This document shows, in pieces, positions 849 through 59,107 of a stretch of DNA of 59,279 bases. A program made the translations under genes and the position numbers. Every line of letters begins with the position of its first letter. Positions within the stretch are counted from its first letter, which is position 1. Source of the stretch: a virus; the IMG/VR virus record IMGVR_UViG_3300040816_001340, positions 1-59,279 of that record; one strand, 5' to 3'. The notes under the pieces were generated by a model. That model worked only from the letters and a program-made list of their open reading frames with translations, ran no database searches and was not told the DNA's origin.

Positions 849-1826
849 TTAAGCATTCTCCTTATTTAGTGTTGTACGAATATCATTGATTGCTGCAACA
901 TCAGCATCCCATAGTCGAGTAAAAGTCTTTTGGAAAGGATCACCGTTTGTTCCGTTAAGTGCCTCACGGCGGCAAGGATAAATTGTATCCTGCTCATGAT
1001 AGTCAAATGAATCATTCTTTGGCTCAGGCTGATAAAGGTTTGTACCTTTGCTTGTCCATGTATCTCCTTCCTTAACACGGAAAGTCTTAATGTAATGCAT
1101 ATCAGGTCGCTCAAAGTCAAGAACAGTTGAAAACTCTGGAATACACTCACAAATAAGACGTGCCATTTGAGTCGCAAGAATGTTATCAACCTCAGGCTGA
1201 ATTTGAACATCTTGACGTTGTCGAACAAGACCAATCAAATCCTTAATGTTAAACCTAGCATAATAGAAAGAAGTAAGGCATTTAGGAAGGATAATACGTG
1301 CATCCATCATTGAAATAACCTTAGAATCAACCATGTCAGCATAAAGCTGCTTTGTATCGTTAACAAGTTGCTGGTAACGGTCATAAAACTCAGGCGAGTT
1401 TTCAATAGCCTCTGGAACAACAGCAGGATCATCACGAAGATCACGATCACCCGTGCATTGTGCTGCAAATGAACCGGCACGATGTCGAATAAGATGTGTT
1501 ACTGTTTGAAGAGAAATTCCACTAATTCTAAACGTAAAACCAAGGCACTCCATAGGCGTAGGCAAAGCTCTAAAGTTAAGAACATCAATAAGATTAAGTG
1601 ACTTATCACGTGTAGAAACATTATCAGGAGAAGATTGCCAAGGATCGTCCGCCCAGGTCGCTTTTGTATAACACCATGCAACATTATGTGCCTGCTCTCG
1701 TGATGGCGCATCAACTAGCTCCACCTTAAGAGCTTCAAGATTGTTTTGAAATGTCGTATTACAAGATTGTCCAAACTTAAGATCCATAGGAAGAGTAATC
1801 GGGTCAATGTTATTATTAAGTGGCAT
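849..1826 (-). CDS. Divergent ThyX-like flavin-dependent thymidylate synthase homologue
   Basis: The 325-residue protein keeps the overall ThyX plan: LIRHRAGSF in place of the RHRxxS motif, and a C-terminal block with ARIILPKCLTSFYYARFN then RQRQDVQIQPEVD, resembling the LP...(T)..NL and R...AQxEI region. The full motif RHRxxSxNxxSxRY is not intact: the Asn becomes Ala, the second Ser becomes Cys, and the RY pair is lost (RHRAGSFAAQCTGD). It is also longer than usual (ThyX is normally 220-250 residues), with an extra 60-residue tail. A canonical ThyX is encoded at 4920-5627, so this copy may act on another nucleotide or methyl donor. Ribosome site AAAGGAAA precedes the ATG. Confidence 0.75.
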   Translation of the reverse strand: MPLNNNIDPITLPMDLKFGQSCNTTFQNNLEALKVELVDAPSREQAHNVAWCYTKATWADDPWQSSPDNVSTRDKSLNLIDVLNFRALPTPMECLGFTFRISGISLQTVTHLIRHRAGSFAAQCTGDRDLRDDPAVVPEAIENSPEFYDRYQQLVNDTKQLYADMVDSKVISMMDARIILPKCLTSFYYARFNIKDLIGLVRQRQDVQIQPEVDNILATQMARLICECIPEFSTVLDFERPDMHYIKTFRVKEGDTWTSKGTNLYQPEPKNDSFDYHEQDTIYPCRREALNGTNGDPFQKTFTRLWDADVAAINDIRTTLNKENA

Positions 1827-4919: not shown

Positions 4920-5627
4920 TTAATGATTATTAATTTCTCGATAAACATTAGTTGCAAAAGGCCAGATATTTACAATAATCTCTAGCATTCCTTTTGCTAG
5001 CTGCTGGATTTCCCATTGTGCGCCTTCATGAATTCTTAGATCAATAAACTTAAGAATATTATTAAGATTTGCTGTTGCGTAATACTTTGTATAAAGGTTC
5101 TGTGGAAGAATCATACGTGCTTGTTCTCTTGCAACGCCACCCTTGATAAGCTTTTCATAAAGTTCTAAAGAATCACTGCAGTGTTCTCGCACAACATCAG
5201 ATGCGCTACCTTCGCCGCCAAAGCCTGTAAAAATGTTAGGATTTACTAGATCATCTGTAGATGCTTGTCGATTTGAAGATGACTGCATTCTAAAAGAAGC
5301 AGGAAAATAAAACTTCATATCATAGTCTGTATATCGTCTACTAATTTCGTTGTAACTCCATGTTCGATGTCGATGATGTTGCGACCGAATAAATAGAGGA
5401 ACTTCGATAAGAAATGTAGCAAAGTTATGTTCTAGAGTTGAAGTATGTTTATGTTTAATAAGATACTTGATAAGTTTACGATCACGATTATCTAATTCTT
5501 GTTTCTCAACACCAAACGAGACTCTAGCTGAGTTGACAATTGTAAGCTCGTCACCCATGCTTTGAACAAGACTAATGTGACCAATATCATCATTATATAA
5601 TTTAACAGTTAAATTGTTTGAACTCAT
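4920..5627 (-). CDS. thyX: Flavin-dependent thymidylate synthase ThyX
   Basis: This 235-residue protein contains the complete ThyX motif RHRTWSYNEISRRY at residues 86-99 (RHRxxSxNxxSxRY), a preceding HTSTLEHNFATF block, and the C-terminal REQARMILPQNLYTKYYATAN and LRIHEGAQWEIQQLA segments that bind dUMP and FAD. ThyX methylates dUMP to dTMP using methylenetetrahydrofolate, FAD and NADPH, without forming dihydrofolate. Its length is typical. It heads a minus-strand run of nucleotide genes and is divergent from the plus-strand fibre island. AAGAGGAAATAA precedes the ATG, and a TATAAT box lies about 25 nt upstream. Confidence 0.97.
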   Translation of the reverse strand: MSSNNLTVKLYNDDIGHISLVQSMGDELTIVNSARVSFGVEKQELDNRDRKLIKYLIKHKHTSTLEHNFATFLIEVPLFIRSQHHRHRTWSYNEISRRYTDYDMKFYFPASFRMQSSSNRQASTDDLVNPNIFTGFGGEGSASDVVREHCSDSLELYEKLIKGGVAREQARMILPQNLYTKYYATANLNNILKFIDLRIHEGAQWEIQQLAKGMLEIIVNIWPFATNVYREINNH

Positions 5628-8633: not shown

Positions 8634-9239
8634 TTATGCTACGTCAATATCGACTGTTACTTTGATTGTCATTTCAGGAACTCGTTTAAAGTTAACAAGA
8701 CCTACTTCAATTGACTCGTCAGCGCCTAAGAACCAATCAGCATGTCCTTTATCATGAATCTTCTTGAGGAAGAAATCATCAGGTTTGCCGCAATTCCTTG
8801 CCATCATTGTAAAAACCTTCTTGTTTAAACGATCAGCTTCGGATGCATCTGCCTTTAGCTCTTCAACCTTACCAAATGCTCGTGATGAAACATCATGAAT
8901 CATAACAGTTGCGTCTGGATCCATAAACCTAAGACCTTCTGCTCCAAACGAAGCAAGAATAGCACCACAAGACATAGCTTTACCTGTTACAATTGTTGCA
9001 ACAGGAACCTTGGAAGACTTAATCGATGAAATCATTGACATTAGTGAATAAACCTCACCACCATATGAGTCAATAATAACAGGAATAACTTTTTGTCCAG
9101 TATTATGTGCAATAGAAACTAGGCTTCTAAATTTAGCTGCTTCTTCTTGATTAAAATCATTTACCTGGATAATAACTGGATCTTTTCTTAACTCAATCTC
9201 TTTAATAGTTTTATCAATATCATGAATACACTGCATCAT
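8634..9239 (-). CDS. ClpP-like serine peptidase (S14 family)
   Basis: A 201-residue protein with the complete ClpP triad by alignment: Ser90 in GKAMSCGAILASFG, His115 in VMIHDVSS and Asp168 in ADWFLGADESIEVGLV. The oxyanion-loop Gly-Gly (DSYGGEVYS) is also present. Length is typical. Phage ClpP homologues either process virion precursors or join host Clp chaperones. The location beside the lysis gene rather than the portal-capsid block does not favour a prohead protease, but does not exclude it. A TATAAATA box lies 44 nt upstream. Confidence 0.88.
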   Translation of the reverse strand: MMQCIHDIDKTIKEIELRKDPVIIQVNDFNQEEAAKFRSLVSIAHNTGQKVIPVIIDSYGGEVYSLMSMISSIKSSKVPVATIVTGKAMSCGAILASFGAEGLRFMDPDATVMIHDVSSRAFGKVEELKADASEADRLNKKVFTMMARNCGKPDDFFLKKIHDKGHADWFLGADESIEVGLVNFKRVPEMTIKVTVDIDVA

Positions 9240-9548: not shown

Positions 9549-10526
9549 TTAAATACTATCACTTTCTAGGCCTTCCCAGCCCCAACTATCTCCACTCATA
9601 CCCATTGCTGAGTAATCTGTTACTGTTCCTTCAAAGAAGTTCTTAAAACTATCACCATTTAATACCCAATCTAACCATTTAAGAGGGTTTTCCTTAACAC
9701 CATAGTTAGGTTTAAGACCAAGTTGAATAAGACGTCTATCAGCTAAATACCGAATATATTGCTTAACTTCATCTGCTTCTAAACCTTCAATAGAACCCAT
9801 CTCATATGCTAGATCAATTACTTTATCTTCTAACTCGACAGCATCTCTATACATCTGATATACTTCAGACTTAAACTTATCATTGATTACACGAGGATGC
9901 TCTTTAAGAAACTCTCTAAATAGCTTGGTCATACCTTGAACGTGCATTGTCTCATCTCTAATAGACCACTCAACAATTTCACACATTCCTTTCATTTTAC
10001 CAAAACGCTGGTAGTTTAGAAGCATAACAAAAGCTGAAAATAGCGACATTCCTTCGTTGCATGCAGATTGTGCTAATGACTTTGCTAATCCTTTAAGTGT
10101 AGATACATCATTGTCCTGCATAAACTCAATCTTATTCTTAAGTTGCTCGTACTCAAGAAATGCGCTGTATTCTTCTTCAGGTAGTCCTAATGTATCATTA
10201 AGCAGAGCATAACTACGTTGATGCGTACCTTCACGGTTTGCAAAACTTAATAGCATACTCCTTATTTCATTATTCTTAAATTTAGGAATAAATAGATCAC
10301 AATAATTGCCACCTACCTGAACATCACTTTGCGTAAAAAGTCGTAGAATCTGTGTAATATGACTTTTCTCTGTTTCAGAGATTTTACCGCCTTTCCACTG
10401 ATTTACATCTTCCTGCAGTTTAGCTTCCCATGAGCCCCAATGAATCTTTTCATGAGACTCTGCAATCTCCATAGCCCACTGATATTTGAAAGGTTTGTAG
10501 GTTTCATTGTATTTGAGTAATGACAT
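9549..10526 (-). CDS. nrdB: Class I ribonucleotide reductase, small (beta) subunit
   Basis: 325 residues from the ATG at 10526, chosen because AAAGGAAAG lies just upstream, whereas the ATG at 10559 overlaps nrdA. Metal ligands are all present: Asp68 (TQSDVQ), Glu99 and His102 (REGTH), Glu158 (CNEGM), Glu192 and His195 (DETMH). Tyr106, four residues after the His as in class Ia, is the expected radical tyrosine. With NrdA it reduces ribonucleoside diphosphates to deoxy forms. The C-terminal tail that docks on NrdA is present. Gene order nrdA-nrdB-thioredoxin fits a single unit. Confidence 0.95.
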   Translation of the reverse strand: MSLLKYNETYKPFKYQWAMEIAESHEKIHWGSWEAKLQEDVNQWKGGKISETEKSHITQILRLFTQSDVQVGGNYCDLFIPKFKNNEIRSMLLSFANREGTHQRSYALLNDTLGLPEEEYSAFLEYEQLKNKIEFMQDNDVSTLKGLAKSLAQSACNEGMSLFSAFVMLLNYQRFGKMKGMCEIVEWSIRDETMHVQGMTKLFREFLKEHPRVINDKFKSEVYQMYRDAVELEDKVIDLAYEMGSIEGLEADEVKQYIRYLADRRLIQLGLKPNYGVKENPLKWLDWVLNGDSFKNFFEGTVTDYSAMGMSGDSWGWEGLESDSI

Positions 10527-10537
10527 TTTTCTTTCCT

Positions 10538-12319
10538 TTATCCTTGGCAGCTTAAGCACTCGTCATCTTGGAAGTCTTTAAGCTTGTCTTGTTCAATCTT
10601 CTCACTTACTTTTTCTGCGCTAGCGCCCGTATTTGTACGTAGGTAATACAAACCTTTTAATTTCTTTTTCCAAGCTCTTAAATGAACATTATTTACAATA
10701 CTTTTGTCTGTCCCAGCCGGGAAGAATAAATTGACACTTTGACCTTGACAAATAAACTCCTGTCTATCAGCTGCATGATCAACAACACGTCTTTGATCTA
10801 ATTCGAAAGCTGTCTTAAATACTAGCTTTTGCCAGTCATTAAAAATATCTAAGTGTTGAATGCTACCTTCATGCAGAATAATACTCTGCCAAGTATCATC
10901 ATATGTTTTTTGATCAATATCGTTTGAATCAAGCATATTAAGTAGTATTCTATCAATATGTGGATTTTTTACAAGATAACTTCCAACTCTTGTTCTATGA
11001 GTAAACGCATTACTCTTCCAAGGTTCAATAGAAGGTGATGTTACAGCAATAATAGAAGAGTTAGCGTTAGGAGCAATAGCCAATAGATGACTATTACGAA
11101 CCCCATGTCCTCCAGCATCTGGGCACTCACCTCTTTCTTGTGCTAGCAGTTGTGTTTGTGCATATGCTCTTTCTTTAATTTGAGAAAAAATCTTCATATT
11201 TAATGACTTAGCAATAGCAGATTCCCACGGAATATTCTTGCTTTGTAACAAAGAGTGAAAACCCATTGCACCTAATCCAAGACTTCTTTCTCTAAGTGCT
11301 GAATTTCCTGCTTTAAGAAGACCGCTCATATTCTCTGTTTTATCAATAAAATATTGAAGAACATTATCTAAATACGTAATAAGATCTTGTACAATTGTTG
11401 TATCTTTCCACTCGTCATATTTTTCTAAGTTAAGGGAAGAAAGACAACAAACAGCACTTCTATCTTTGTCTGTAGGAAGATGGATTTCATTACATAGGTT
11501 ACTACCATGAATTTTTAATCCAAGATCTTTCTGGAACTCTGGCAGCTGTCTATTTGCTTCGTCAATAAAGTTTAGATAAGGTTCACCTGTTCTAAATCTT
11601 GTAACAAGAATTCTTTGCCATAAATCTCTAGCTTTAACTGTATCTCTAACAGAGCCATCATTAGGGTCAAGAAGATTCCAGTCATCACCTTTGACAACAG
11701 CTTCCATAAAGTCATCTGAAATGTTTACTGCGTTATGAAGATTAAAACATTTTCTGTTTACATCTCCACCTGTTGGTAGCCTAATGTTTAAGAACTCAAT
11801 AATGTCAGGATGAGAAACATCCATATATGCTGCATAACTACCTTTTCTTGTCTTGCCTTGACGATACGCAGTCATATCAGCATCAACTGTCTTAAGAAAA
11901 GGAATAGGGCCAGGTGAAATTTCGCTATTACTTCTAATACTCGACCAGTGTCCGCCTACACCGCCGCCTTTAACGCTCATCCAACGTAGTTCTTCACTAT
12001 GATCCATTAGCCCTTCAAGACTATCATCTACAAATGTAAGAAAACAAGAGATAGGTAAACCTCTTGAAGTGCTACCTGGTTGAGGTGCATTTGAAAGAAT
12101 TGGTGAAGAAAACATAAACCACTGTTGTGAAGCGTAGTCGTAGATTCTTTGTGCTAGTTCATTATCTCCTGCACAGAAAGCCAACGCAGCCCTTGCAAAA
12201 GCTTCTTGCGGAGAGTCCTCCTCCGGTAACATATAGTAATTTTTTAATAAGTCAATTGAAAACTTGTTTAGTCTTTTATCTCTATTTTTATCGACTACAA
12301 TACTATGATAACTTTCCAC
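10538..12319 (-). CDS. nrdA: Class I ribonucleotide reductase, large (alpha) subunit, lacking an ATP-cone
   Basis: 593 residues from a GTG start preceded by AAGGGGATAAA. Active-site residues are visible: Cys92 (GLPISCFL) and Cys292 (AVCCLSSLNL) as the redox pair, the Asn274-Cys276-Glu278 triad (GSNLCNEI), and Tyr558-Tyr559 (LKGLYYLRTN) for radical transfer. The C-terminal DDECLSCQG is the shuttle dithiol. There is no N-terminal ATP-cone: the protein starts about where the catalytic ten-stranded barrel begins. Overall dATP feedback inhibition is therefore probably absent, a feature seen in other phage reductases. Confidence 0.96.
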   Translation of the reverse strand: MESYHSIVVDKNRDKRLNKFSIDLLKNYYMLPEEDSPQEAFARAALAFCAGDNELAQRIYDYASQQWFMFSSPILSNAPQPGSTSRGLPISCFLTFVDDSLEGLMDHSEELRWMSVKGGGVGGHWSSIRSNSEISPGPIPFLKTVDADMTAYRQGKTRKGSYAAYMDVSHPDIIEFLNIRLPTGGDVNRKCFNLHNAVNISDDFMEAVVKGDDWNLLDPNDGSVRDTVKARDLWQRILVTRFRTGEPYLNFIDEANRQLPEFQKDLGLKIHGSNLCNEIHLPTDKDRSAVCCLSSLNLEKYDEWKDTTIVQDLITYLDNVLQYFIDKTENMSGLLKAGNSALRERSLGLGAMGFHSLLQSKNIPWESAIAKSLNMKIFSQIKERAYAQTQLLAQERGECPDAGGHGVRNSHLLAIAPNANSSIIAVTSPSIEPWKSNAFTHRTRVGSYLVKNPHIDRILLNMLDSNDIDQKTYDDTWQSIILHEGSIQHLDIFNDWQKLVFKTAFELDQRRVVDHAADRQEFICQGQSVNLFFPAGTDKSIVNNVHLRAWKKKLKGLYYLRTNTGASAEKVSEKIEQDKLKDFQDDECLSCQG

Positions 12320-12328
12320 TTTATCCCC

Positions 12329-12829
12329 TTAGTCTGAACTTCCTACTTGCCCGTCCTGTCTTTGAGCAGTAGAGGTTAGATTTAAGTATTCCTCTTCAGT
12401 TACGACCTGAAAATCATTGTCGCACTTCACTACTACAATTTGAAATGGCAGTTTTCTTTTAGCATAAATAGTATAGACATCAGAACCAGTATTTATACAA
12501 TTTACAAAAACTTCTCCTGTATAACCGCTGTCAATTACTCCAGCACGAACCTTTAGGGGTGTTTTAGTTACAGAACCTCTCTCTTGAACTAGTGCAACAT
12601 AACCTCGTGGAACATCAATTCTGATACCTGTTGGAATTAAGACTTTTTGTGGAGCTAATGAGCCTGATGGAATATTGCTAGAAGGTTTAATATCGATTGT
12701 TGGGCCACAGTTATAAAGATCTAAACCAGCACTTTCTCCTCCATAAGCTGGCAAATATTCACTTTCAGGATTGATTTTATTAACTTCTAAAGCACTTCGT
12801 AGATCATCACTTAAACAAATCTTAACCAT
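12329..12829 (-). CDS. dut: Trimeric dUTP diphosphatase
   Basis: 166 residues. Motif 1 is AGLDLYN (34-40), motif 2 QERGSVT (the usual RSS becomes RGS), motif 3 GVIDSGYTGEV (97-107), and motif 4 PFQIVV. Motif 5, normally RGxGGFGST, is altered to QRQDGQVGSSD at the C-terminus. The enzyme converts dUTP to dUMP. Insertions between residues 41 and 60 make it slightly longer than usual. The start overlaps the helicase gene by 8 nt, so the two are translationally coupled. Confidence 0.92.
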   Translation of the reverse strand: MVKICLSDDLRSALEVNKINPESEYLPAYGGESAGLDLYNCGPTIDIKPSSNIPSGSLAPQKVLIPTGIRIDVPRGYVALVQERGSVTKTPLKVRAGVIDSGYTGEVFVNCINTGSDVYTIYAKRKLPFQIVVVKCDNDFQVVTEEEYLNLTSTAQRQDGQVGSSD

Positions 12830-44289: not shown

Positions 44290-45531
44290 TTATCCTATTA
44301 TTATTGCTCTTCCGTTAGGAATAGGAACTCGTTTAAGAATGTTTTGCATTTGCTCAGACTGAGCAGCATCTGTCTCAAGAAGTTTTTGATATGTTAGCTT
44401 ATCAAGCTGCTCACCTAAACTTGTCTTTAGCTTTTCTTGATCTTCGCGGCCTTGGCTTATTAAGTCAGAACCATTCATTTGAAGATCAGCACCAGGAATA
44501 GGAACAGAAGAAAACTTAGATCGAACAAGTCCTAGAGTTTCCTTACACAGGGCTAAAGTATATTCTCTAATCCAGTGTCTTGCAATAGAGTTAATACCTT
44601 TATAAGAGATGTTTCCAAAAGGAATGTTAGATAAGTTTGAAACACCAAATATTGTGCTATCTTCAAAAGAAGGCTTAAAAGGATCTGAAGGGAATCCTAC
44701 CTTTAAGAATAAGTTTAGAGGATTGTCTTGTGTAGGTGTAGGAAAAATTCTTATCTTTGTCCCTTGAATCTTATAAGAGTAGTTACTACGACGTATTCTA
44801 TTGGATATATCTAACTGTCCTGCTCGAAGATAGTCTTCAAAAACAGGAAGAACATAGAATACTGTTTCTGGTGTAAAGCTTTCAAAAGCAAACTGATTAT
44901 TTAAGTAGTTTACTGCTGATGTTGTATCAAAGAAGCGATATGCAGCTTGTGGAGAAAAATGAAATACTTCATATATTCTTAATTTGCCTTTGCTTGCATG
45001 ATTTAACTTTGTTGTATTTGCTGCATCCAGATAAGCATCAGACATAACAGAAACTTCAGCACCTGAACTAGTTGTAGTTTTTAAGTCTGTATAAATATCA
45101 TAATCTTGTCGGCCTCTTTCTAATGCAATTGAACCGCTTAAAGTATTATAAGCGCCACCGACTCCTGCTTGATCTGCATAAGGTTCAGCACGCCTTGTAA
45201 GATATTCTAATGTCTCTCTAGGAAACTGCTGTTCTTTTCCATGCGGACCAACCTTATTATTATTATCATCTTCCAGCGATCCTGTTGAAATACCCATAAG
45301 GTTTGACATATAGGATTCAGCTTGATTTTGGTTGATAATCTTGCTGTATTTTAATGTGGCTTCTTCGAAGTTAGCCCATATTTGTTTATTTGTTAGTTCG
45401 ACTGATAGAATGTCATCGCCAAGTTTTCTTTTAACATATACGACCATTTTGTCTGCTTCGTGAGAAAAGTGATCGTCATCATCATATATGCCAAAAGGTG
45501 TTGGTGCTGTCGTGCTACTAAACGCTGCCAT
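44290..45531 (-). CDS. Neck protein (T4 gp13-like)
   Basis: 413 residues. The C-terminal half has HWIREYTLALCKETLGLVR, then PIPGADLQMNGSDLISQGREDQEKLKTSL, a helical-hairpin pattern typical of gp13-type neck proteins (W(L/I)+EY..AL.K...G and LPG...M.G..L...). The N-terminal half is helical then beta (VYVKRKLGDDILSVELTNKQI). It should form the collar ring at the portal. AGAGGTTAAG precedes the ATG. Confidence 0.72.
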   Translation of the reverse strand: MAAFSSTTAPTPFGIYDDDDHFSHEADKMVVYVKRKLGDDILSVELTNKQIWANFEEATLKYSKIINQNQAESYMSNLMGISTGSLEDDNNNKVGPHGKEQQFPRETLEYLTRRAEPYADQAGVGGAYNTLSGSIALERGRQDYDIYTDLKTTTSSGAEVSVMSDAYLDAANTTKLNHASKGKLRIYEVFHFSPQAAYRFFDTTSAVNYLNNQFAFESFTPETVFYVLPVFEDYLRAGQLDISNRIRRSNYSYKIQGTKIRIFPTPTQDNPLNLFLKVGFPSDPFKPSFEDSTIFGVSNLSNIPFGNISYKGINSIARHWIREYTLALCKETLGLVRSKFSSVPIPGADLQMNGSDLISQGREDQEKLKTSLGEQLDKLTYQKLLETDAAQSEQMQNILKRVPIPNGRAIIIG

Positions 45532-46845: not shown

Positions 46846-47526
46846 CTATTTTTTATAGTCTAAGTCAAATGGACTTGGAGTCGTAGTCGCTAATGTAATA
46901 TGATCTACTGGAGCCTTAGCTGCCGCAGGAGTTATCATTTCATGTTCTAAAAGAATGTTTATAAGTCCACTCAAATATAAAGGCGCGTTATGCACGCGAT
47001 CATTTGCATACTTGAACGCGTAATCAATAACTTCTTTTGCACAAGCACTGTTATTATTTCTTCTTAAACTACATACTAGACTACCATTGTCATAGAAAAC
47101 GCCACCGGTGAGACCTTCGTGAAATCTGTCATCCATGTAATATTGTGTGCCACAAGCTAACGCTTTTTTGCGCACTTCCTCATCACGTGCAGCAGCTGCT
47201 GCATATTTGTCTTCTAAAGCATCTACACTTTCGTAGTCATCTCCTCTGTTATCAGGGTCATCTAACGGATCCTGACTACCATCAAGTTTACGTCCTGGGC
47301 CCACAGATCGAGCACCTTGGCCAAACGCCGGGCCGTGACTATAACCGTCTCCATCTCTAGCTTCGTTGATTTTAGCAGCTTCTTCAGCAATGATACGCTT
47401 GAGCATAGCAGGAGTTGCCTTAACTGTACGTGGCTCGCTAACGCTTTCGCTCACAAGCTTCTTCTTAACATGCGAGCGAACTTCTTCAGCAATAATCTTT
47501 TGTAGTTGTTCTTTTGAAATTCTCAT
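46846..47526 (-). CDS. Leader-bearing protein with duplicated leader, possible capsid-internal protein
   Basis: 226 residues. Residues 1-16 are MRISKEQLQKIIAEEV and residues 38-56 repeat the theme (TPAMLKRIIAEEAAKINEA). Both have (I/L)xE sites (IAE, IAE, INE). Next comes a Gly/Asp-rich linker and a small domain with Cys124, Cys152 and Cys161 near the C-terminus. If the leaders are cut by a T4-type prohead protease, the mature part would start near residue 56. Function of the mature part is unknown. AAAGGATAG ribosome site. Confidence 0.6.
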   Translation of the reverse strand: MRISKEQLQKIIAEEVRSHVKKKLVSESVSEPRTVKATPAMLKRIIAEEAAKINEARDGDGYSHGPAFGQGARSVGPGRKLDGSQDPLDDPDNRGDDYESVDALEDKYAAAAARDEEVRKKALACGTQYYMDDRFHEGLTGGVFYDNGSLVCSLRRNNNSACAKEVIDYAFKYANDRVHNAPLYLSGLINILLEHEMITPAAAKAPVDHITLATTTPSPFDLDYKK

Positions 47527-47556: not shown

Positions 47557-48093
47557 TTATTTAGCTATTCTTAAAACTAATACAGTTGTTAAAGAAGAAA
47601 CAATTGCGCCACCAAAACCATAAAGTGTATAACGCAGTCTTGTTGAATCATGTTGCTCTCTCTCTGTTGCTAAATCTTCTTCTGCTTTTGCCAAGTCTTC
47701 TATTAACAATGCCGTCCTATCATCACAGTCTTCTTGGCAACTTTCAACTTCTGTAATACATGAGTCTACTCTTGCATCACATTCTCTTGTAAAGTCATCA
47801 GGCAAGCTATCAATAACTGTTTGTATTAAACCAACATCAGATCTTCGAAGAATATATCCTTTATGTGGAGCAGGTGCACCTTCAGGAACAAAATCAGCTA
47901 CAACTTTAAGTAATCCAATCTGAAACGTAATAGGTTTAACTACAGGTTTGACTTGCATTTCCGGAACGTCTAACAAAAGTCTAGAAGGCTCAGATCTACT
48001 TGATGCACCTTCTTGCGCGACTTGTTGTTGGCTGTATGCATTGCCTGCAAAAGAAATAAAAACTATTAATAAACTTAAAATCTTATTTAACAT
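47557..48093 (-). CDS. Exported protein with C-terminal membrane anchor (spanin-like pair, member 2)
   Basis: 178 residues from the ATG at 48093; a TTG at 48111 is the alternative. Residues 1-20 are a signal peptide (LNKILSLLIVFISFAGNAYS, cleavage likely after AYS; no lipobox Cys). A periplasmic part follows with four cysteines in CDARVDSCITEVESCQEDC and a coiled-coil segment, then a C-terminal membrane span (YGFGGAIVSSLTTVLVL). It is encoded immediately after member 1. Topology resembles a unimolecular spanin without the lipid. Membrane location is well supported; lysis role is a guess. Confidence 0.5.
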   Translation of the reverse strand: MLNKILSLLIVFISFAGNAYSQQQVAQEGASSRSEPSRLLLDVPEMQVKPVVKPITFQIGLLKVVADFVPEGAPAPHKGYILRRSDVGLIQTVIDSLPDDFTRECDARVDSCITEVESCQEDCDDRTALLIEDLAKAEEDLATEREQHDSTRLRYTLYGFGGAIVSSLTTVLVLRIAK

Positions 48094-48098
48094 AAATC

Positions 48099-48419
48099 TT
48101 ACTCTTGACAAGCTAGCTCTTCGCAGTTAACTCTAAATCTCTCTAACTTTTCCTGGCATGCTACACGCTCGGATTTATGACATGATCGAATTCTCTCATC
48201 ACAATCAGTAACTTTACTGCCTCTACATGTTGTTAATTGACCTTCTAACTTGGCGATATCATCTGTATATTTTCGGCAAATTGTCTCTCTATCAACAGGT
48301 GCTGTAAGACGACCTATACCAAAAGCTAATGTTAGTGCTAAAATGCCACCAATAACTGCAGCACCTAATTTGCTGTGCTGTGAAGCTAATTTATTAAACT
48401 CTTCGATTTGTTTTTTCAT
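48099..48419 (-). CDS. Membrane-anchored cysteine-rich periplasmic protein (spanin-like pair, member 1)
   Basis: 106 residues. A single N-terminal membrane span (about 18-40: LGAAVIGGILALTLAFGIG) is followed by a periplasmic helical tail with seven cysteines spaced as C-x17-C-x7-C-x6-C-x6-C-x11-C-x4-C. Inner-membrane spanins have this layout (N-anchor, coiled coil), though without so many cysteines. The next gene encodes a second cysteine-rich membrane protein, so disulphide bridging between them is plausible. Ribosome site AGAGGT is good. Confidence 0.55.
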   Translation of the reverse strand: MKKQIEEFNKLASQHSKLGAAVIGGILALTLAFGIGRLTAPVDRETICRKYTDDIAKLEGQLTTCRGSKVTDCDERIRSCHKSERVACQEKLERFRVNCEELACQE

Positions 48420-48444: not shown

Positions 48445-49863
48445 TTAATTAATTGCCTGGATTAACTTATTAACCTTACCAAGCTGATTTTTATAACTTT
48501 CAATACTGTCCCAACCACTTTCTGGCATCAAGAATTTGTTGTTAAAATCACTAATAATCGGAACATTTAAGTTTGTATATTTATGCTTAAAAAAGTTACT
48601 TAATTTATTATTATTGATCATTTTAATTATCTTTCTGCTTAATTTAATTGGTATTCTTTGCCCTTTTTTATAGTCACCACCAAAAAATCCTGTATTAACA
48701 AGCCACACCTTTGTTTTATTTTCTCTAATTTTTCTTGAAAATATCTCTCCGTAAAACTCAGGTTTATGCGGCAAGAAAGGTGAGCCAAAACAATGTGAAT
48801 ATGTTGCTTGAGGCTCTGTTACACCTAATTCAGTTCCTGCAACTTTTGACGTATAACCTAAACAAAATAGATTTTTAGCTTGATCTTCATTTAATAAAGA
48901 AACAGATGGCAAGATACCAAATGCATCATAAGTTAAAAATACAACATTTTCAGGATGCTTACCACTTTCAGTCTTTTTGACATCTAAACTATCAATATCA
49001 AAAGAACATCTAGAGTTTTGCGAGTATTTACTATCAGTAAAGTCACACTCATTATCTTCGTTTATAACAACGTTTTCTAAAATAGAGTATTCTTTTTGAA
49101 TTGCATTCCAGATTAGTTTTTCGTTATCTTTACTAAGATTAATAACTTTAGCATAACAACCTCCCTCAATGTTTGTTATACCTCTATCGTCCCATATATG
49201 TTCGTCATCACCTAACAAAACTCTATCGTTAACAAGCGAAAGTGTTGTTTTTCCTGTCCCACTTAATCCAAAATAAAGTGTTGTTTCACCTTTTTCATTA
49301 CAGTTTGCTGAACAGTGCATTGGTAAATGATTTGCTTGTGCAACCTCAAAATTAATAACAGAGAATATCGATTTTTTTATTTCACCAGCATAATGTGTTC
49401 CACTAATAAGAATACACCTGTCTCTAAAAGAAACTGCTACAAGCGGATAATCTAATAAGTTTGGGTAGTGATATATTTTCCAATGCTGAAATGGTGCTAC
49501 ATCTTCTCTTTCAAAGAACATATTTTTACCAAACAAAGCATGCCAAGCATATTCTGTATATAAATCAACATTAAACCTATAATCTTTGCTTCTAGCAACA
49601 GAGAGTTCTTCTAAATAAGAAGCATTATCATAGTCTAAGAATTTTTGATGCAATTGATCAAAGTCTTCTTGCGTCATAAACTCGTTTTTGTCCCAATCAA
49701 TAAAATCAGCAGTTTCATCAGATAAAACGTATTTTTTTGCCGTCGGGCATCTTCCAGACCATTTACCTGTTAATACAGAAAGCCTGGAATTACTAAGCAC
49801 CCGACCTTCATTGTTATCAGACGAATGCTTTAATAGCTCTTTCTTGCTTAGATTATAATACAT
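48445..49863 (-). CDS. pckA: Phosphoenolpyruvate carboxykinase (ATP)
   Basis: 472 residues with every signature of ATP-type PEPCK: substrate Arg38 in SGRCP, HYAGEIKKSIFS (Tyr158, Lys163/164), MHCSAN (His183), P-loop FGLSGTGKTTLS (198-209), metal Asp219-Asp220 in GDDEHIW, EGGCYAKVINLS, Arg285 in NSRCSF, and GVTEPQATYSHCFGSPFLP. It interconverts oxaloacetate + ATP and PEP + CO2 + ADP. It is slightly shorter than the bacterial enzyme (about 540). The reading frame is intact, AT-rich like the phage, and embedded between phage genes, so it is a resident metabolic gene rather than an assembly artefact. Probably acts in the infected cytoplasm. Confidence 0.96.
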   Translation of the reverse strand: MYYNLSKKELLKHSSDNNEGRVLSNSRLSVLTGKWSGRCPTAKKYVLSDETADFIDWDKNEFMTQEDFDQLHQKFLDYDNASYLEELSVARSKDYRFNVDLYTEYAWHALFGKNMFFEREDVAPFQHWKIYHYPNLLDYPLVAVSFRDRCILISGTHYAGEIKKSIFSVINFEVAQANHLPMHCSANCNEKGETTLYFGLSGTGKTTLSLVNDRVLLGDDEHIWDDRGITNIEGGCYAKVINLSKDNEKLIWNAIQKEYSILENVVINEDNECDFTDSKYSQNSRCSFDIDSLDVKKTESGKHPENVVFLTYDAFGILPSVSLLNEDQAKNLFCLGYTSKVAGTELGVTEPQATYSHCFGSPFLPHKPEFYGEIFSRKIRENKTKVWLVNTGFFGGDYKKGQRIPIKLSRKIIKMINNNKLSNFFKHKYTNLNVPIISDFNNKFLMPESGWDSIESYKNQLGKVNKLIQAIN

Positions 49864-49922
49864 TAGACAACTCTCTTTTACTTGAATAATATATTATAAT
49901 TTTACAATTTTATAAAATAATA

Positions 49923-50312
49923 TTATGGCTTTCTAAAAATAGTAGCATCTTCTCTATTAGCTGATGATATGTCAATAACATCGTTATCGTCTAAATCAAG
50001 AGTATTTCTTGCATCTTTTTTGATTAAGTAAACTTTACCGTCTTGACCAACTGCAACTTTAGCTGTAAACTCAACACCTTTAACCATTTCTTTTAGGCTA
50101 CTACCAGGAGTATAATGAGCTTTATCGTAAGGTTTAGCAACAGCTTTGCCACTTTTGTCTTTATAAACTGAAACGTCTTCTAGTTTTATATTTAGTCCAT
50201 ATTTCTTTAATATATCTTCAATGCTTGCATTAGCATTTCTAAAATAAATAAGTGGATCTACTTCTTCGTTTAAGTAATTGTTCCATTCTTTTAATAGCTG
50301 CTTAAAGTTCAT
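49923..50312 (-). CDS. Small leader-bearing protein, possible capsid-internal protein
   Basis: 129 residues. The leader is MNFKQLLKEWNNYLNEE with a possible cleavage after LNE, almost the same as in the gene just upstream (LLKEW...Y(I/L)NE). The rest is a small alpha/beta protein (GVEFTAKVAVGQDGKVYLIKK) that shares the theme YxKKDG/Y(L/F)IKKDA with the C-terminus of its neighbour. Start overlaps the upstream stop (TAATG). Function is unknown. Confidence 0.6.
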   Translation of the reverse strand: MNFKQLLKEWNNYLNEEVDPLIYFRNANASIEDILKKYGLNIKLEDVSVYKDKSGKAVAKPYDKAHYTPGSSLKEMVKGVEFTAKVAVGQDGKVYLIKKDARNTLDLDDNDVIDISSANREDATIFRKP

Positions 50313-51175
50313 TATTGTTCATCCTCTCCTTCAAAAGGAAATATGTTCTCTACTAAAGATACTAAAGATCCATCTTTCTTTTTAACGTATAGATTGCCTT
50401 CAACGTCTATGACAAATTTAGCATTATAGAAAATATAGTCTACGTTATCATCTCTTGCTAAGTCAAAAACTTTTGCAACGTTCATGCTTTCTTCTGTAAA
50501 GCCAATTACTCTCATCTGATTAAGAAATGTATTAATAACTGACTCTATTCTTTTCTTATAGATAATATCTCTAAGTTTTGCTTCTCTAACAAGTCTTTCT
50601 TGCTTGTCTCTTTCTACAGTGTCCTTAAATACTCTACTATCATCTCTATCTTTTTCATCGCTAGAAATTGTCATAGGATCCATGTTTAGCGCAATATGAA
50701 GCGCAGCTTCTGCAACATCTTTAATACCTGACAATATTGATGAAAAACCAACTTCTTTTTGATCTTCATCACGTATTTCAGGTTCTATTTTTACTTGACT
50801 TGAGTCATTACTTAATTGCTCTAATTGTTTTTCTGCAAGCCTATATTCTCGATCACTATATTCTTTAACTCTGCTGCTAAGATTTGATTTTGCACTTTCA
50901 AATATCTTCACTTCAGCTTTTATTTTATCATCTCTTTCAACTTCATGCTCATTTTTTAACGCCCTATAAAGACTTAAGTCTACACCTACATTAAAAGAGT
51001 TAGGATCATAGTCAATATCGCCTAGTATTATTTCGCAGTTTTCTTTCATCTCTTTGAAGAATCTTTCATCAAGAGTAAAGTCATAGTCATCTGGACCGCC
51101 GTAAACCGGCTTATCATGTGGCCCAGACTCATTAATATAACTGCGCCACTCTTTTAATAGATCTTTCGTTTTCAT
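50312..51175 (-). CDS. Leader-bearing protein, possible capsid-internal protein
   Basis: About 287 residues from the ATG at 51175, which has AGAGGTAATAAT upstream (in-frame ATG at 51196 lacks a site). The leader MKTKDLLKEWRSYINES matches the next gene and fits an (I/L)xE site at INE. A helical middle (about 70-200) rich in Lys, Glu and Arg looks like coiled coil. The C-terminus (AKFVIDVEGNLYVKKKDGS) resembles the C-terminal part of the next gene, so the two are related by duplication. Function is unknown. Confidence 0.6.
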   Translation of the reverse strand: MKTKDLLKEWRSYINESGPHDKPVYGGPDDYDFTLDERFFKEMKENCEIILGDIDYDPNSFNVGVDLSLYRALKNEHEVERDDKIKAEVKIFESAKSNLSSRVKEYSDREYRLAEKQLEQLSNDSSQVKIEPEIRDEDQKEVGFSSILSGIKDVAEAALHIALNMDPMTISSDEKDRDDSRVFKDTVERDKQERLVREAKLRDIIYKKRIESVINTFLNQMRVIGFTEESMNVAKVFDLARDDNVDYIFYNAKFVIDVEGNLYVKKKDGSLVSLVENIFPFEGEDEQ

Positions 51176-51195
51176 ATTATTACCTCTATAATACA

Positions 51196-51203
51196 TATTT
51201 ATA
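51196..51203 (+). promoter_or_regulatory. TATTTATA box in a divergent gap
   Basis: Plus-sense TATTTATA 31 nt before the ATG at 51235; read on the minus strand it is TATAAATA, 20 nt before the ATG at 51175, the T4 late consensus. The site is part of ATACA...TGTAT, so it could serve either gene or both. Confidence 0.4.
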
Positions 51204-51234: not shown

Positions 51235-51921
51235 ATGTATAAATACGATAACCTCGTAACTATTTTAGAAACTAACAATGAACAACATAAAACGTGGACA
51301 CTAAATGAAAATTACGAATTCATTCTTCAAGAAAAAAGATTTTCTAAGTGGTATGATTTCAAAGAAGTTGCTGTAAATGATTTATATGATTTATATTCAC
51401 TTTTAGAATCATGCCAAAATAATCCACATCAAAGTATCATTCGAGGAAAAATAAACGAAAAAGCATGGAAGCATAAGCTTGATGGCTATAAAATAACTAG
51501 ATCAAAAGATTTCATTAAAGACTATCCTAAACGATGGATCATGTTTGACATTGATAACTTCTTAAAGCCTGAAAGTGTTGATATTACTCGTTCTAAAGGT
51601 CGCAAAGAATCAATTGAGATTTTCTTAGAATCCTTAGGTAGTCAATTCAAAGAAACGTCTTATATTTGTCAGTTTTCTAATGGAATGTTTCCTACTAGCG
51701 AAAAAATAAAAGCTCACTTGTGGTTTATGCTAGATAAACCTGCAAAATGTCAAGAGTTAAAAGAATACTTTACTAAAGACAAATACAACTTAGATACATG
51801 TGTTTTTAATGCACCTCAAATATATTACACTTCAAAACCTAAGTTTACGAACTGCTTAGACCCACTATCAGAATCTAGACTTTATTTGATAGAAAAAAAG
51901 AACAACTTATTAAAACTGTAA
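51235..51921 (+). CDS. PrimPol-like archaeo-eukaryotic primase (AEP) domain protein
   Basis: 228 residues. Motif I is RWIMFDIDNF (Asp105, Asp107), motif II KIKAHLWFMLDKP (His161), and a later LDTCVFNAPQIYYTSKPKF...DPLSESR matches the closing block of AEP-fold primase-polymerases on plasmids and phages (HLWF.LD+P..., D..(L/V)F...Q.(H/I)YT..P.F...DP). AEP enzymes make RNA or DNA primers. Here it stands alone without a helicase domain. The window has a DnaB-like helicase but no DnaG-type primase, so this may be the phage primase. It is in a plus-strand island with PolX. Confidence 0.68.
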   Translation: MYKYDNLVTILETNNEQHKTWTLNENYEFILQEKRFSKWYDFKEVAVNDLYDLYSLLESCQNNPHQSIIRGKINEKAWKHKLDGYKITRSKDFIKDYPKRWIMFDIDNFLKPESVDITRSKGRKESIEIFLESLGSQFKETSYICQFSNGMFPTSEKIKAHLWFMLDKPAKCQELKEYFTKDKYNLDTCVFNAPQIYYTSKPKFTNCLDPLSESRLYLIEKKNNLLKL

Positions 51922-51957: not shown

Positions 51958-52542
51958 ATGAAAATTTCACTAAATGAGCTAAGAAAAATTGTTAGAAACA
52001 CCATTACGGAAGCACTTGATGACGATCGCATGTCACGCCCAAGCATGAGCGATGAGTATGCAGAGACAACTGCACAAGGTCTTGGCAGCGCAGCGGAAAC
52101 CGGTTATATGCATGGTTTAGGCTATTATGATGCAGATCGTCAGGCATTTGTTGCAGGTAAGGTAGATCTTGACATTGATCCTGCACTTGCTGATAACGAG
52201 CTTTTAGATGGCCCAGCTTCACCACTTTCATATGCTGATAGAGGTGATGTTGTTATTGACATGACAGTTCTATTCGGCGCACCAGGCTCTGTTCAGTCAG
52301 GTGAAATGAGATCAAGAGAGACAATTTATCTTAAAGATGGCGACCCTATTCTAGCAAAGATTAGAAAAGCATATAACGAGCCTTCAGTTGATGGCTCTTT
52401 CGAAAGCAGAAGAGACGCAATTTATGGTGCTCTAGATATCTTAGCACAAAATGACCTTATTCCAATCGAGACACAGCCTGAAGATGTTTCTGTTGTAACA
52501 ATGGGTATGGGCACAAGAAAGCTTAGCGAACTAGTAAGGTAA
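51958..52542 (+). CDS. Leader-bearing protein, possible capsid-internal protein
   Basis: 194 residues. The leader MKISLNELRKIVRNTITEA has an ITE site as expected for cleavage after Glu18. The remainder is acidic, Gly/Ala/Asp-rich and moderately higher in GC, without a motif I know. It includes a VVIDMTVLFGAPG strand-loop and a C-terminal GMGTRKLSELVR. AAGGAGAAAAA precedes the ATG. It lies between the primase-like gene and PolX on the plus strand, so its transcription is not with the minus-strand leader genes. Confidence 0.6.
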   Translation: MKISLNELRKIVRNTITEALDDDRMSRPSMSDEYAETTAQGLGSAAETGYMHGLGYYDADRQAFVAGKVDLDIDPALADNELLDGPASPLSYADRGDVVIDMTVLFGAPGSVQSGEMRSRETIYLKDGDPILAKIRKAYNEPSVDGSFESRRDAIYGALDILAQNDLIPIETQPEDVSVVTMGMGTRKLSELVR

Positions 52543-53638: not shown

Positions 53639-54150
53639 TCAGCTTTAATCTTATAATATCTGTTATGAGGTAGATCCGGCGTAAAGAACAGAATTCTATT
53701 ACCTTCTGGATCTACAAGTTCAAAATTTGTATCGCCCCATGATGTTTTTTCTAGACTGCCAATCTTAATGTTCTTTCTAGAAAACTTATCATGTAGACTT
53801 TGCACATTCTTTACACGAATTGACATAGAACAATTACCAAAGAATTTTCTATTAGCACCTTTCTTACTAAAAAGCTCTAATATGTTTCCACCTACATTTA
53901 TCATTGTCCCATCACCACTAGCGTCTCTCCAATAACGAACAACAGGAAACTCAAGAATCTTATTATAAAATCTAGTCATTTCTTGCATGTTATCAACATA
54001 CATGTGAACTCTAACTTCTCTAGAGTAAGGCCTCCAAGATTTACCTAAATCTATTCCTGCTTCCTGCGCAGCTTTAACATCAGTTGCAGTTGGCGACGTA
54101 TTTACTTTCTTTTTCTCTACTTTGTCGTTCTGACTTAAGAATCCAATCAT
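53635..54150 (-). CDS. VOC-fold (glyoxalase/dioxygenase-like) protein
   Basis: 171 residues. After a 47-residue extension comes VRVHMYVDNMQEMTRFYNKIL, GGNILELFSK and SIRVKNVQSLHDKF, then FELVDPEGNRILFFTP, the two beta-alpha-beta-beta-beta units of a VOC domain. Of the four metal ligands, His (VHMYV) and Glu (LELF) are present, while the second-half His and Glu appear replaced (Arg, Ile). It may therefore bind metal weakly or a ligand without catalysis. Its start overlaps the upstream stop by 4 nt (ATGA), so it is coupled to the leader-bearing gene. Confidence 0.7.
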   Translation of the reverse strand: MIGFLSQNDKVEKKKVNTSPTATDVKAAQEAGIDLGKSWRPYSREVRVHMYVDNMQEMTRFYNKILEFPVVRYWRDASGDGTMINVGGNILELFSKKGANRKFFGNCSMSIRVKNVQSLHDKFSRKNIKIGSLEKTSWGDTNFELVDPEGNRILFFTPDLPHNRYYKIKAD

Positions 54151-54875
54151 TGTTTAACCATTTCTATTAACTTTAGCTCTTCTAATATAGGTATTACATC
54201 GTTATTTGTCTTATAATAAGCTTTTGACAAAGAAGATTTAAGCCAACCATCACTTAAACTCTCTTCTCCACTTCTTTTAAGAACATTCTTGAAGGTTGAT
54301 ATTTGCTCTATGTCATCTGAAGGGTCATCTTTTGTGTATTTCGGAACAACGATATCGTCTCTTACACCCTTTATACCTAGTTCTCCAGGCGTGCCAAATA
54401 TACTTTCATAATCCATCTGGATATATTCTAAGTTACCTTCGCTCTGTGATCGTCTGAGATAATAGTCCCAAACCCTTTCAGCATCATCTGAAACTGTTAG
54501 TCTGTCCGACATTAACATTCCTCTCTTAGAAGAAACGTATTCTAAAGCAACTTCATATAATAAAGGACCCCAAGACCTTTCGGCGCTAGATGATGTTGTC
54601 TGCCAGATACTTTTGTTGTTAAAAGTCTTCTGACCAGATCCACTATAAACCCAGTCTATATTAACATAACCATATATTTTCTGCCCAGGAACAAAAGAAG
54701 TGTCCACATATTTAACGTTTATCATGTTACCAACTTCTTCGATTAGTATCTTGCAGCTGTTTTCTTCTCTTTTATTATAGAAAAACAAAGTTTGCACAGA
54801 TTCTTTTATTCTGTCAATTCCTTTGTTTTGCCTTTCTAATAACAACCCTATATACTCTTTTAATAATCTTGACAT
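54147..54875 (-). CDS. Leader-bearing protein with GNAT-like region, possible capsid-internal protein
   Basis: 242 residues. The leader MSRLLKEYIGLLLERQ has an LLE site. Around residues 100-160, SWGPLLYEVALEYVSSKRG, MSDRLTVSDDAERVWDYYLRR follows a pattern common in hypothetical marine phage proteins that looks like a GNAT acetyltransferase (Gly-x-G/P-L helix binding acetyl-CoA, then a dispersed catalytic segment), but the acetyl-CoA motif is not complete. A helical C-terminus follows. It overlaps the VOC gene by 4 nt. Confidence 0.6.
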   Translation of the reverse strand: MSRLLKEYIGLLLERQNKGIDRIKESVQTLFFYNKREENSCKILIEEVGNMINVKYVDTSFVPGQKIYGYVNIDWVYSGSGQKTFNNKSIWQTTSSSAERSWGPLLYEVALEYVSSKRGMLMSDRLTVSDDAERVWDYYLRRSQSEGNLEYIQMDYESIFGTPGELGIKGVRDDIVVPKYTKDDPSDDIEQISTFKNVLKRSGEESLSDGWLKSSLSKAYYKTNNDVIPILEELKLIEMVKQ

Positions 54876-57280: not shown

Positions 57281-59107
57281 TTAGATAATGTTCATGTCGA
57301 GGCAGGTAACTGTTCCGTAGAAGTCAGCACGTACCATCTTCTTACCGTAGCGTGTCATAACGCCCTTGCGAGGTGTGAAATCCTCTGGCGCGAAGATTGT
57401 CGGAGTGACGATGAGAGGAACGTAAGGAGCGTAGACGAAGCCTGTCTCAAGGTAGCTACCGCCCTTGTAACCGACGAGGATCTTGTTACGTGGGAAGTAG
57501 GGGTCCTTGTAAACGGTGAAGCGGTTGCTAAGTGTACCGATCTTCTCTGCACCCATTGTGAAAGGAGCACCAACCTGGCCGTCACCGTCGAGGCTGTAAG
57601 CAGGACGATAAAGAACAGATGCTTCAAGGATTGTTGCAACGTCAGGTGAAACAACGATGAAGTTCGCGGAACCGCGAAGTGTCTTTCTGTGGATTTCGTT
57701 AGCAACGTCGATAACGGTCTCGGTAAGAGTCTCGTACCACTCACGAACTGTACCAGTGAAAGCTGGTCCAGGGGTGAGAGTGCTTGTGCGAGCAATCTCT
57801 GCACCGGTCTGCTTGTTAACGAACTTACCAGGGCTACGACTCCAGTAGTAGTTTGCACCTTGTGCCTGGGTAAGAAGGTCATTAAGAATCTCACGGTCGA
57901 TCTCAAGGGCGATCTGCTCGGAGAGGATCTGTGTAAGCTCAACCTCTGCGTCCATGCTGTGGTAAGCGTTAAGATCCTGTGCGAGCTCTGGGGACCAACG
58001 AGCTCTGAGCTTTCTGGTCTGTGCTGTTACAGGGATTGACTCAATCTTAATATCGATCTCAGGAATAACAGGAGTCTGTGCGCTTCCAAGACCCATGTTG
58101 GACTCAAATGCAGGAACTGTAAGAGTATCGCCACCTGAAGCGCTGGCCTCAAAGGAGTCAGCTTTGACATAAGAAAGGTGAACCTCGGCTGCTACAGGTG
58201 CTTCTGTCCCAGAAAGAACTAAAAGAACCTGAGAACCATTGATAGGATCAGGTGTCCAAGTTGTTCCGCTTAAGCTACCAAGCTGGTTAAGTCTACGAAC
58301 GTTAAGAGCTTCGCCACCTTGTAATGTGCCCAAGTCTGTTTCAATGTCTTTATTCATAGCCTGAGAACCAGTCGCCATAAGTGCGAAGTCTTTAACTGCA
58401 GTTTTATCAGCAGCAGATGGAACATCAGCAGCAACAAAGAAGAACTTACCTTCTGAGTTGTCAATAAGGTCTAGAACTTGCGGGTCAAATTGTAGAAGCT
58501 TTGCGTCTGCTGTTGTGCTTGTTGAAGCAGCTCCGACAGAGGCGCCTAGATTAACAAATCCTGCCGCTGTAAATGAGTCTCCGTTGCCAATTCCGTGAGA
58601 AGTTTCTACATCGTGAACTCGTGAAAAACCGCTGCCAGCTAGATCATATTGACCACCAACACCAAGTGAGCCGCTTTGGACGCCTTTACCTGTTGGACTA
58701 TTGTAAATGCTCTGACCAGCCTTGTATGTGCTAGGTGAATCAGCGTCGCCGCCAACATCACTACCATAGGTATAATCAAGGTAGAAGAGGAGACCGCTTG
58801 GAAGGCTCATTGGCTGAATGGAGACGAGCTCATTTGCAACGAGACCACCGAAAACGCGGCGGACGATTGGGAATGCGATGTTGGTGAAACCGCGGATGTC
58901 GCTGCTACCATCGCTACCGAGAGTGTTTGCCTCACGGAGGACCTGCGCTGCCTGGTTCTCGAGGAGTGTAGACATGTTCTCACGTGCTACATCATCAAGA
59001 CCACGAAGAAGACCTGTGCGGTTCCACTTCTCAACAAGGCGCTTGTTCTGGGTGCCAACGTGACGCTGACGAATACCTTCTGTTAACTGTTGTAGATTAA
59101 ATGACAT
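57281..59107 (-). CDS. Major capsid protein (T4 gp23-like)
   Basis: 608 residues. The N-terminus (NLQQLTEGIRQRHVG) and IAFPIVRRVFGGLVANELVSIQPMSLPSGLLFYLDYTYG match gp23 of T4-like phages, and later RKLRARWSPELAQDLNAYHSMDAEVEL and APYVPLIVTPTIF are family blocks. QVLREANT at 55-62 fits the T4 prohead protease rule (I/L)xE, so cleavage after Glu59 is predicted. GC content and codon use are clearly higher than in surrounding genes, as for a very abundant protein. Strong AGGAG site. A terminator follows. Confidence 0.95.
   Translation of the reverse strand: MSFNLQQLTEGIRQRHVGTQNKRLVEKWNRTGLLRGLDDVARENMSTLLENQAAQVLREANTLGSDGSSDIRGFTNIAFPIVRRVFGGLVANELVSIQPMSLPSGLLFYLDYTYGSDVGGDADSPSTYKAGQSIYNSPTGKGVQSGSLGVGGQYDLAGSGFSRVHDVETSHGIGNGDSFTAAGFVNLGASVGAASTSTTADAKLLQFDPQVLDLIDNSEGKFFFVAADVPSAADKTAVKDFALMATGSQAMNKDIETDLGTLQGGEALNVRRLNQLGSLSGTTWTPDPINGSQVLLVLSGTEAPVAAEVHLSYVKADSFEASASGGDTLTVPAFESNMGLGSAQTPVIPEIDIKIESIPVTAQTRKLRARWSPELAQDLNAYHSMDAEVELTQILSEQIALEIDREILNDLLTQAQGANYYWSRSPGKFVNKQTGAEIARTSTLTPGPAFTGTVREWYETLTETVIDVANEIHRKTLRGSANFIVVSPDVATILEASVLYRPAYSLDGDGQVGAPFTMGAEKIGTLSNRFTVYKDPYFPRNKILVGYKGGSYLETGFVYAPYVPLIVTPTIFAPEDFTPRKGVMTRYGKKMVRADFYGTVTCLDMNII

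Follow-up and report, generated by a model that had tools for sequence, protein, structure and literature searches.

Does a phage encode a functional phosphoenolpyruvate (PEP) carboxykinase (PCK), and what might such an enzyme do during infection? The question is raised by an open reading frame in the 59,279-nucleotide stretch (positions 1 to 59,279) of IMG/VR record IMGVR_UViG_3300040816_001340, the whole of which is referred to here as the window. The genes of the window include those for a gp23-like major head protein, a head-tail adaptor, UvsX, SSB, DnaB, a polymerase, ribonucleotide reductase (RNR), ThyX and dUTPase, and mark it as part of a large T4-superfamily phage. The nearest isolates, as judged by the capsid protein, are distant (Microcystis phage Mel-JY01, Flavobacterium phage immuto and Rhodothermus phage RM378). 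On the sequence evidence presented below, the window pckA is a real auxiliary metabolic gene of a recognised sort, specifying an unusual enzyme from a phage-only lineage. We infer that it probably provides the phage with a working, compact ATP-dependent PCK as an auxiliary metabolic enzyme.

Identity and active site of the carboxykinase

The reading frame (48445..49863, minus strand) has no internal stop and encodes a predicted ATP-dependent PckA of 472 amino acids, preceded by a probable ribosome binding site (AGAGAG, 49871..49876, minus strand) 7 nt ahead of the start codon. The product scores 490 bits against the PF01293 profile (cut-off 26.5), aligning to model positions 3–456 of 465 (454 covered), and a phmmer search of the PDB gives E = 2e-98 to Thermus thermophilus PCK, which excludes a chance match. 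An AlphaFold2 model, built from an input alignment of 30 window and locus sequences, has a mean pLDDT of 90.6 and a pTM of 0.90. Its best PDB matches are all ATP-type, with TMq values of 0.87–0.94 to all ATP-PCKs (0.92–0.94 to that of T. thermophilus) and no more than 0.79 to GTP-PEPCK, indicating an ATP-type rather than a GTP-type fold.

The original prediction of a PEP carboxykinase with an intact active site is borne out on both points. The motifs R38, MHCSAN (182–187), GLSGTGKT (199–206), GDDEH (218–222) and R285 are in place, as are Y158, K163, K164, H183, D219, D220, K239, F363 and R403; in E. coli numbering, the complete catalytic set of R65, Y207, K212, K213, H232, the P-loop, D268, D269, K288, R333 and R449 is kept. 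The adenine-pocket threonine is replaced by Ser409, and serine is likewise found in three of the 15 other copies from the phage clade described below (clade A). The protein thus shares with bacterial PckA (EC 4.1.1.49; T. thermophilus 1j3b/2pc9 and E. coli 1aq2) its fold (TMq 0.91–0.93), P-loop, DD metal motif, oxaloacetate-binding arginine, Lys/His metal ligands and adenine pocket. It differs in sequence (about 36–44% identity), in having alanine in place of D68 and threonine at alignment column 477, in its phage genome context, and in length: bacterial enzymes have about 525–540 residues, whereas both ends and one loop are shortened in the window PCK. Across 123 bacterial PCKs, 126 columns are at least 95% conserved; the window protein matches 96 and differs at 30, none of which is among the listed catalytic and metal residues. 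Its score of 424.8 lies under the cut-off of 590 for the NCBI pckA equivalog TIGR00224, and it falls below the NF006819–NF006823 cut-offs too. Judged by these scores, it is a divergent family member outside the cellular pckA equivalogs.

A phage gene in a variable island

The gene sits between two conserved structural genes. The head-tail adaptor (44290..45531, minus strand; phrog_211, 42–66% identity in relatives, and 100% in four contigs belonging to the window phage) forms the left edge, and the gp23-type major head protein (57281..59107, minus strand; phrog_138, E = 1e-75, 63–71% identity in relatives) the right. The capsid gene has a GC content of 0.50, compared with 0.35 for the remaining window. 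The interval between these genes (45.5–57.3 kb) varies within this phage family and forms an accessory island, with contents that include a pol-beta-like gene, a glyoxalase, a PAS protein and a NUMOD3/Mom-like protein.

Flanking genes were compared by profile–profile alignment (hhalign). The related contigs L212, L234 and L241 retain the window order of pol-beta-like gene, g51235, two membrane genes, a small targeting-like protein, g46491 and adaptor. The boundary gene at 51235..51921 (plus strand, 228 amino acids) matches its L234 and L241 homologues with 100% probability and 48% identity. On the other side, a 106-residue protein with one transmembrane segment (48099..48419, minus strand) matches counterparts in L234, L241 and L209 (E = 1.3e-6), and it is followed by a second syntenic gene, for a 184-residue membrane or periplasmic protein (47557..48111, minus strand; E = 1.6e-6). 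PCK is absent from the syntenic position in L212, L234 and L241, and from the rest of the 133-kb sister contigs L234 and L241. The stretch missing in the sister phages corresponds to PCK and two small upstream phage genes (49923..51196, minus strand; 129 and 294 amino acids), which have no homologue in 142 relative loci. PCK and these two neighbors therefore look like an accessory insertion, bounded by phage genes, in a variable late-gene island. PCK was found in three of the 28 longer family contigs tested; two were already known from clade A, and L348, the third, has a copy nearest those of clade A. The position seen in the window is unique to this contig among the relatives seen.

Could the PCK segment instead be host contamination or the product of a chimeric assembly? 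Parts of the window between 34.3 and 45.5 kb are matched by three IMG/VR contigs at 100% identity, and a fourth matches 51.6–59.3 kb at 99.9%; none spans the PCK stretch. The contigs from other samples flank it, two ending exactly at 45452 and one beginning at 51550 (L205, L206 and L266). Pattern scans revealed no other contig that crosses the stretch or holds this PCK allele, and an exact 45-mer from PCK occurred in IMG/VR only in the window. Furthermore, PCK genes in some "phage" records are truly host DNA (Staphylococcus UPMK_1 and Salmonella contigs). Set against this, five genes inside 45.45–51.55 kb (g46491, g46846, g47557, g48099 and g51235) are syntenic with sister phages, which argues against a chimera. 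There is no close bacterial PCK in the sampled set (best 375 bits, versus 416 for a phage copy), and the GC (0.315) and GC3 (0.225) of the gene resemble those of other genes in the window, among them RNR and DnaB. The claims that the gene has the AT-rich composition of the phage itself, and phage genes on either side, are thus upheld by these values and by the capsid, adaptor and syntenic flanks. We conclude that the window PCK is a genuine phage gene and regard contamination or chimerism as extremely unlikely; the breaks at 45452 and 51550 may stem either from the assembly or from true differences between strains in this island.

Five neighbors of PCK (46846–47526, 49923–50312, 50312–51196 and 54147–54875 on the minus strand, and 51958–52542 on the plus strand) begin with short amphipathic motifs (MRISKEQLQKIIAEE, MNFKQLLKEWNNYLNEE, MKTKDLLKEWRSYINES, MKISLNELRKIVRNTITEA and MSRLLKEYIGLLLER). 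These N termini, and similar ones in sister phages, resemble T4-type capsid-targeting sequences, and the five products may be packaged internal head proteins. Packaging of PCK itself in the virion is not favored, since its N terminus, which carries no additional targeting sequence, aligns with those of cellular PCKs. Scans for promoters and terminators gave no excess over shuffled sequence (31 versus 28; 4 versus 3.8).

A phage-only clade of carboxykinases

A single-sequence scan of IMG/VR with the window PCK detected no relative, and an alignment query was then used; this identified 74 loci that encode PCK relatives. The cellular set comprised the best 80 loci among the matches listed, widened by 1,099 genomes of three groups. 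In a tree of 59 rows, one branch (support 100/100, present in 100% of bootstraps) separates the window and 11 phage sequences, clade A, from 44 bacterial and archaeal rows. The question posed with the original prediction, whether phage copies form a separate clade, is answered positively by this tree. Clade A members come from large T4-superfamily contigs and are shorter than bacterial PCKs. All 16 have the D68-to-alanine change and threonine at column 477, positions at which bacteria have aspartate (98%) and phenylalanine (98%). Genes for the gp23 capsid protein and terminase accompany PCK in at least 12 records; these include nine with clade A PCKs (L005–L008, L015, L017, L021, L053 and L063) as well as L077, L022 and LR756504. 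For five clade A pairs, a set that does not include the window copy, dN/dS is 0.035–0.089, and clade A PCK is under strong purifying selection in relatives of the window phage.

The window PCK is the most diverged member of clade A, on a branch of about 2.8 substitutions per site. When it was moved just across the clade A branch to the bacterial side, the AU test did not reject the alternative (p = 0.256). With so long a branch and this p value, the assignment to clade A is strong and not beyond doubt. The tree provides strong support for the window protein belonging to a deep, phage-only clade and not being recently host-derived. The possibility raised with the original prediction, a recent insertion of host DNA in a single isolate, survives in one part, namely the unique position of the gene among the relatives seen; recent host origin does not.

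Other viral PCKs have different affiliations. A first tree united clade A with a second phage group, clade B (L027–L078), and was overturned when wider bacterial sampling shifted clade B near Bacteroidota. Clade B proteins, like that of the window, belong to the ATP-PCK family and are encoded on phage contigs, but they occupy a separate branch, and none of nine clade B contigs has an IMP dehydrogenase (IMPDH) gene. The phage PCKs of LR756504 (636 kb), L022 and L025, unlike those of clade A, fall inside the Bacteroidota PCKs. PCK has been reported in giant viruses (PMC9270025, PMC8407384). Those of Catovirus CTV1 and Klosneuvirus (Mimiviridae), the only PCKs in BFVD, are virus-encoded ATP-PCKs like that of the window, and the Catovirus protein is of similar length (480 amino acids; TMq 0.86). 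They differ in belonging to eukaryotic viruses and in their 35% identity to the window PCK.

The expectation that phages rarely carry this enzyme holds for isolates, since the phage collection INPHARED has no genuine cultured copy (leaving out H5–H7, three short unannotated phage-labelled fragments); among IMG/VR records there are 74 loci for PCK relatives. PHROGs has no PCK family. Several INPHARED matches, LR756504 not among them, were set aside. Staphylococcus phage UPMK_1 (L003; MG543995.1, 34745–52181) is host chromosome, with pckA and menaquinone genes, fused to phage genes; among the Salmonella matches, H4 proved on inspection to be host chromosome and H3 is annotated as Salmonella. A trench-sediment virome paper lists pckA as a viral auxiliary gene without studying it (PMC12448302). 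The deep phage-only clade and its nucleotide-gene neighborhood go beyond the original prediction. No description of a phage PCK clade or enzyme was found in the literature searched.

Proposed role during infection

The original prediction suggested a link to nucleotide supply because the phage also encodes RNR, ThyX and dUTPase. All three were located in the window: class I RNR beta and alpha subunits (9549..12319, minus strand; PF00268, PF02867 and NF006577 above cut-off), dUTPase (12329..12829, minus strand; PF00692) and ThyX (4920..5627, minus strand; TIGR02170 above cut-off). Homologues lie close to PCK in clade A phages. The dUTPase gene is directly downstream of PCK in L010–L021, a ThyX homologue with 55% identity is 3.4 kb from PCK in L053, and in L019 an RNR-like gene is just upstream, with DnaB upstream too (DnaB is also found in L011 and L015). 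IMPDH/GMP reductase genes are present on 12 of 15 clade A contigs, usually less than 10 kb from PCK, and on none of nine clade B contigs. The link recurs in several clade A sub-branches and may partly reflect shared descent of neighboring genes. A cysteine-synthase-like enzyme near PCK is common to eight loci among the clade A relatives. These neighborhoods support a nucleotide-supply role circumstantially and are no proof of it. In the window itself the suggestion fares less well: PCK lies among late morphogenesis genes and does not adjoin RNR or ThyX, so the timing of its expression may differ from that in relatives.

During infection, the predicted enzyme would convert oxaloacetate and ATP to PEP, CO2 and ADP, a direction favored by the nucleotide-gene neighborhoods, and could sidestep the controls that the host places on gluconeogenesis. 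Amino acids and TCA-cycle intermediates would then supply carbon for triose and pentose phosphates, and for serine, glycine and one-carbon units derived from 3-phosphoglycerate; these would in turn feed the synthesis of nucleotides, and possibly of surface sugars, for the large phage genome. A more elaborate and tentative reading, which we put forward as possible while thinking it may well be wrong, is that clade A is an ancient phage-owned PCK contributing one reaction to a mobile phage cassette for nucleotide supply (PCK, IMPDH/GMP reductase, dUTPase and RNR/ThyX, often with a CysK-like enzyme), by which gluconeogenic carbon would be forced into the ribose and purines of infected heterotrophs.

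Other explanations of the gene were weighed against a gluconeogenic auxiliary enzyme. PCK can work in either direction, and the carboxylating one is used by certain bacterial ATP-PCKs, such as those of the succinate producers Actinobacillus and Anaerobiospirillum; both enzymes are among the PDB matches to the window PCK. An active phage enzyme might likewise convert PEP, CO2 and ADP mainly to oxaloacetate and ATP and so furnish an anaerobic or capnophilic host with ATP and C4 acids. We consider this improbable: near PCK we noticed no gene that might act as its partner in C4-acid export or in supplying CO2, and the linkage seen in relatives is to nucleotide genes. Similarly unlikely, in our estimate, is that clade A proteins keep the fold and ATP site while having a changed substrate or a regulatory or moonlighting role. 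The 30 altered near-invariant columns, the clade-wide loss of D68, which adjoins the oxaloacetate-site arginine, the change at column 477, the very long window branch and the sub-threshold equivalog scores would fit such a change, but all ligands checked, whether for oxaloacetate or metal or in the P-loop, are retained by 16 of 16 clade A members and selection in relatives is strongly purifying.

The remaining explanation is that PCK is selfish or transient cargo, of no consequence for the phage. Its absence from L234 and L241, its low frequency in longer family contigs and its unique position are what such cargo would display. Nevertheless, the frame is open over its full length, the active site is intact despite deep divergence, and the protein belongs to a phage-only clade under selection; we judge this explanation very unlikely. 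An auxiliary ATP-PCK working toward PEP is thus the reading we prefer.

T4-like marine phages carry auxiliary metabolic genes such as talC, zwf, gnd and cysK. The window PCK resembles these in being an accessory enzyme of central metabolism in the T4 superfamily, patchy in distribution and located in a variable island, and differs in representing the gluconeogenic entry step. The clade suggests that phages own this committed step over the long term, beyond sporadic pick-ups from hosts. If the enzyme is active, phages of heterotrophs would drive carbon upward out of the TCA cycle, and in this would complement the pentose-phosphate genes that cyanophages carry. Since lambda CI represses host pckA (PMC6359870), a phage-encoded PCK would be a second point of contact between phages and this function. 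With clade A, a well-studied enzyme also gains a set of compact natural variants.

Several other genes were noted in passing. The window has two ThyX homologues; the one at 849–1826 (minus strand, 325 amino acids) scores far under the equivalog cut-off and may serve another role. A ClpP-like protease gene (8634–9239, minus strand) has homologues near PCK in L012, L013, L016, L017 and L021. The clade A IMPDH/GMP reductases are short, at about 350 amino acids (L010:2781-3848, L011:18120-19184 and L009:14241-15284), and the one copy tested, that of L010, falls under all NCBIfam equivalog cut-offs.
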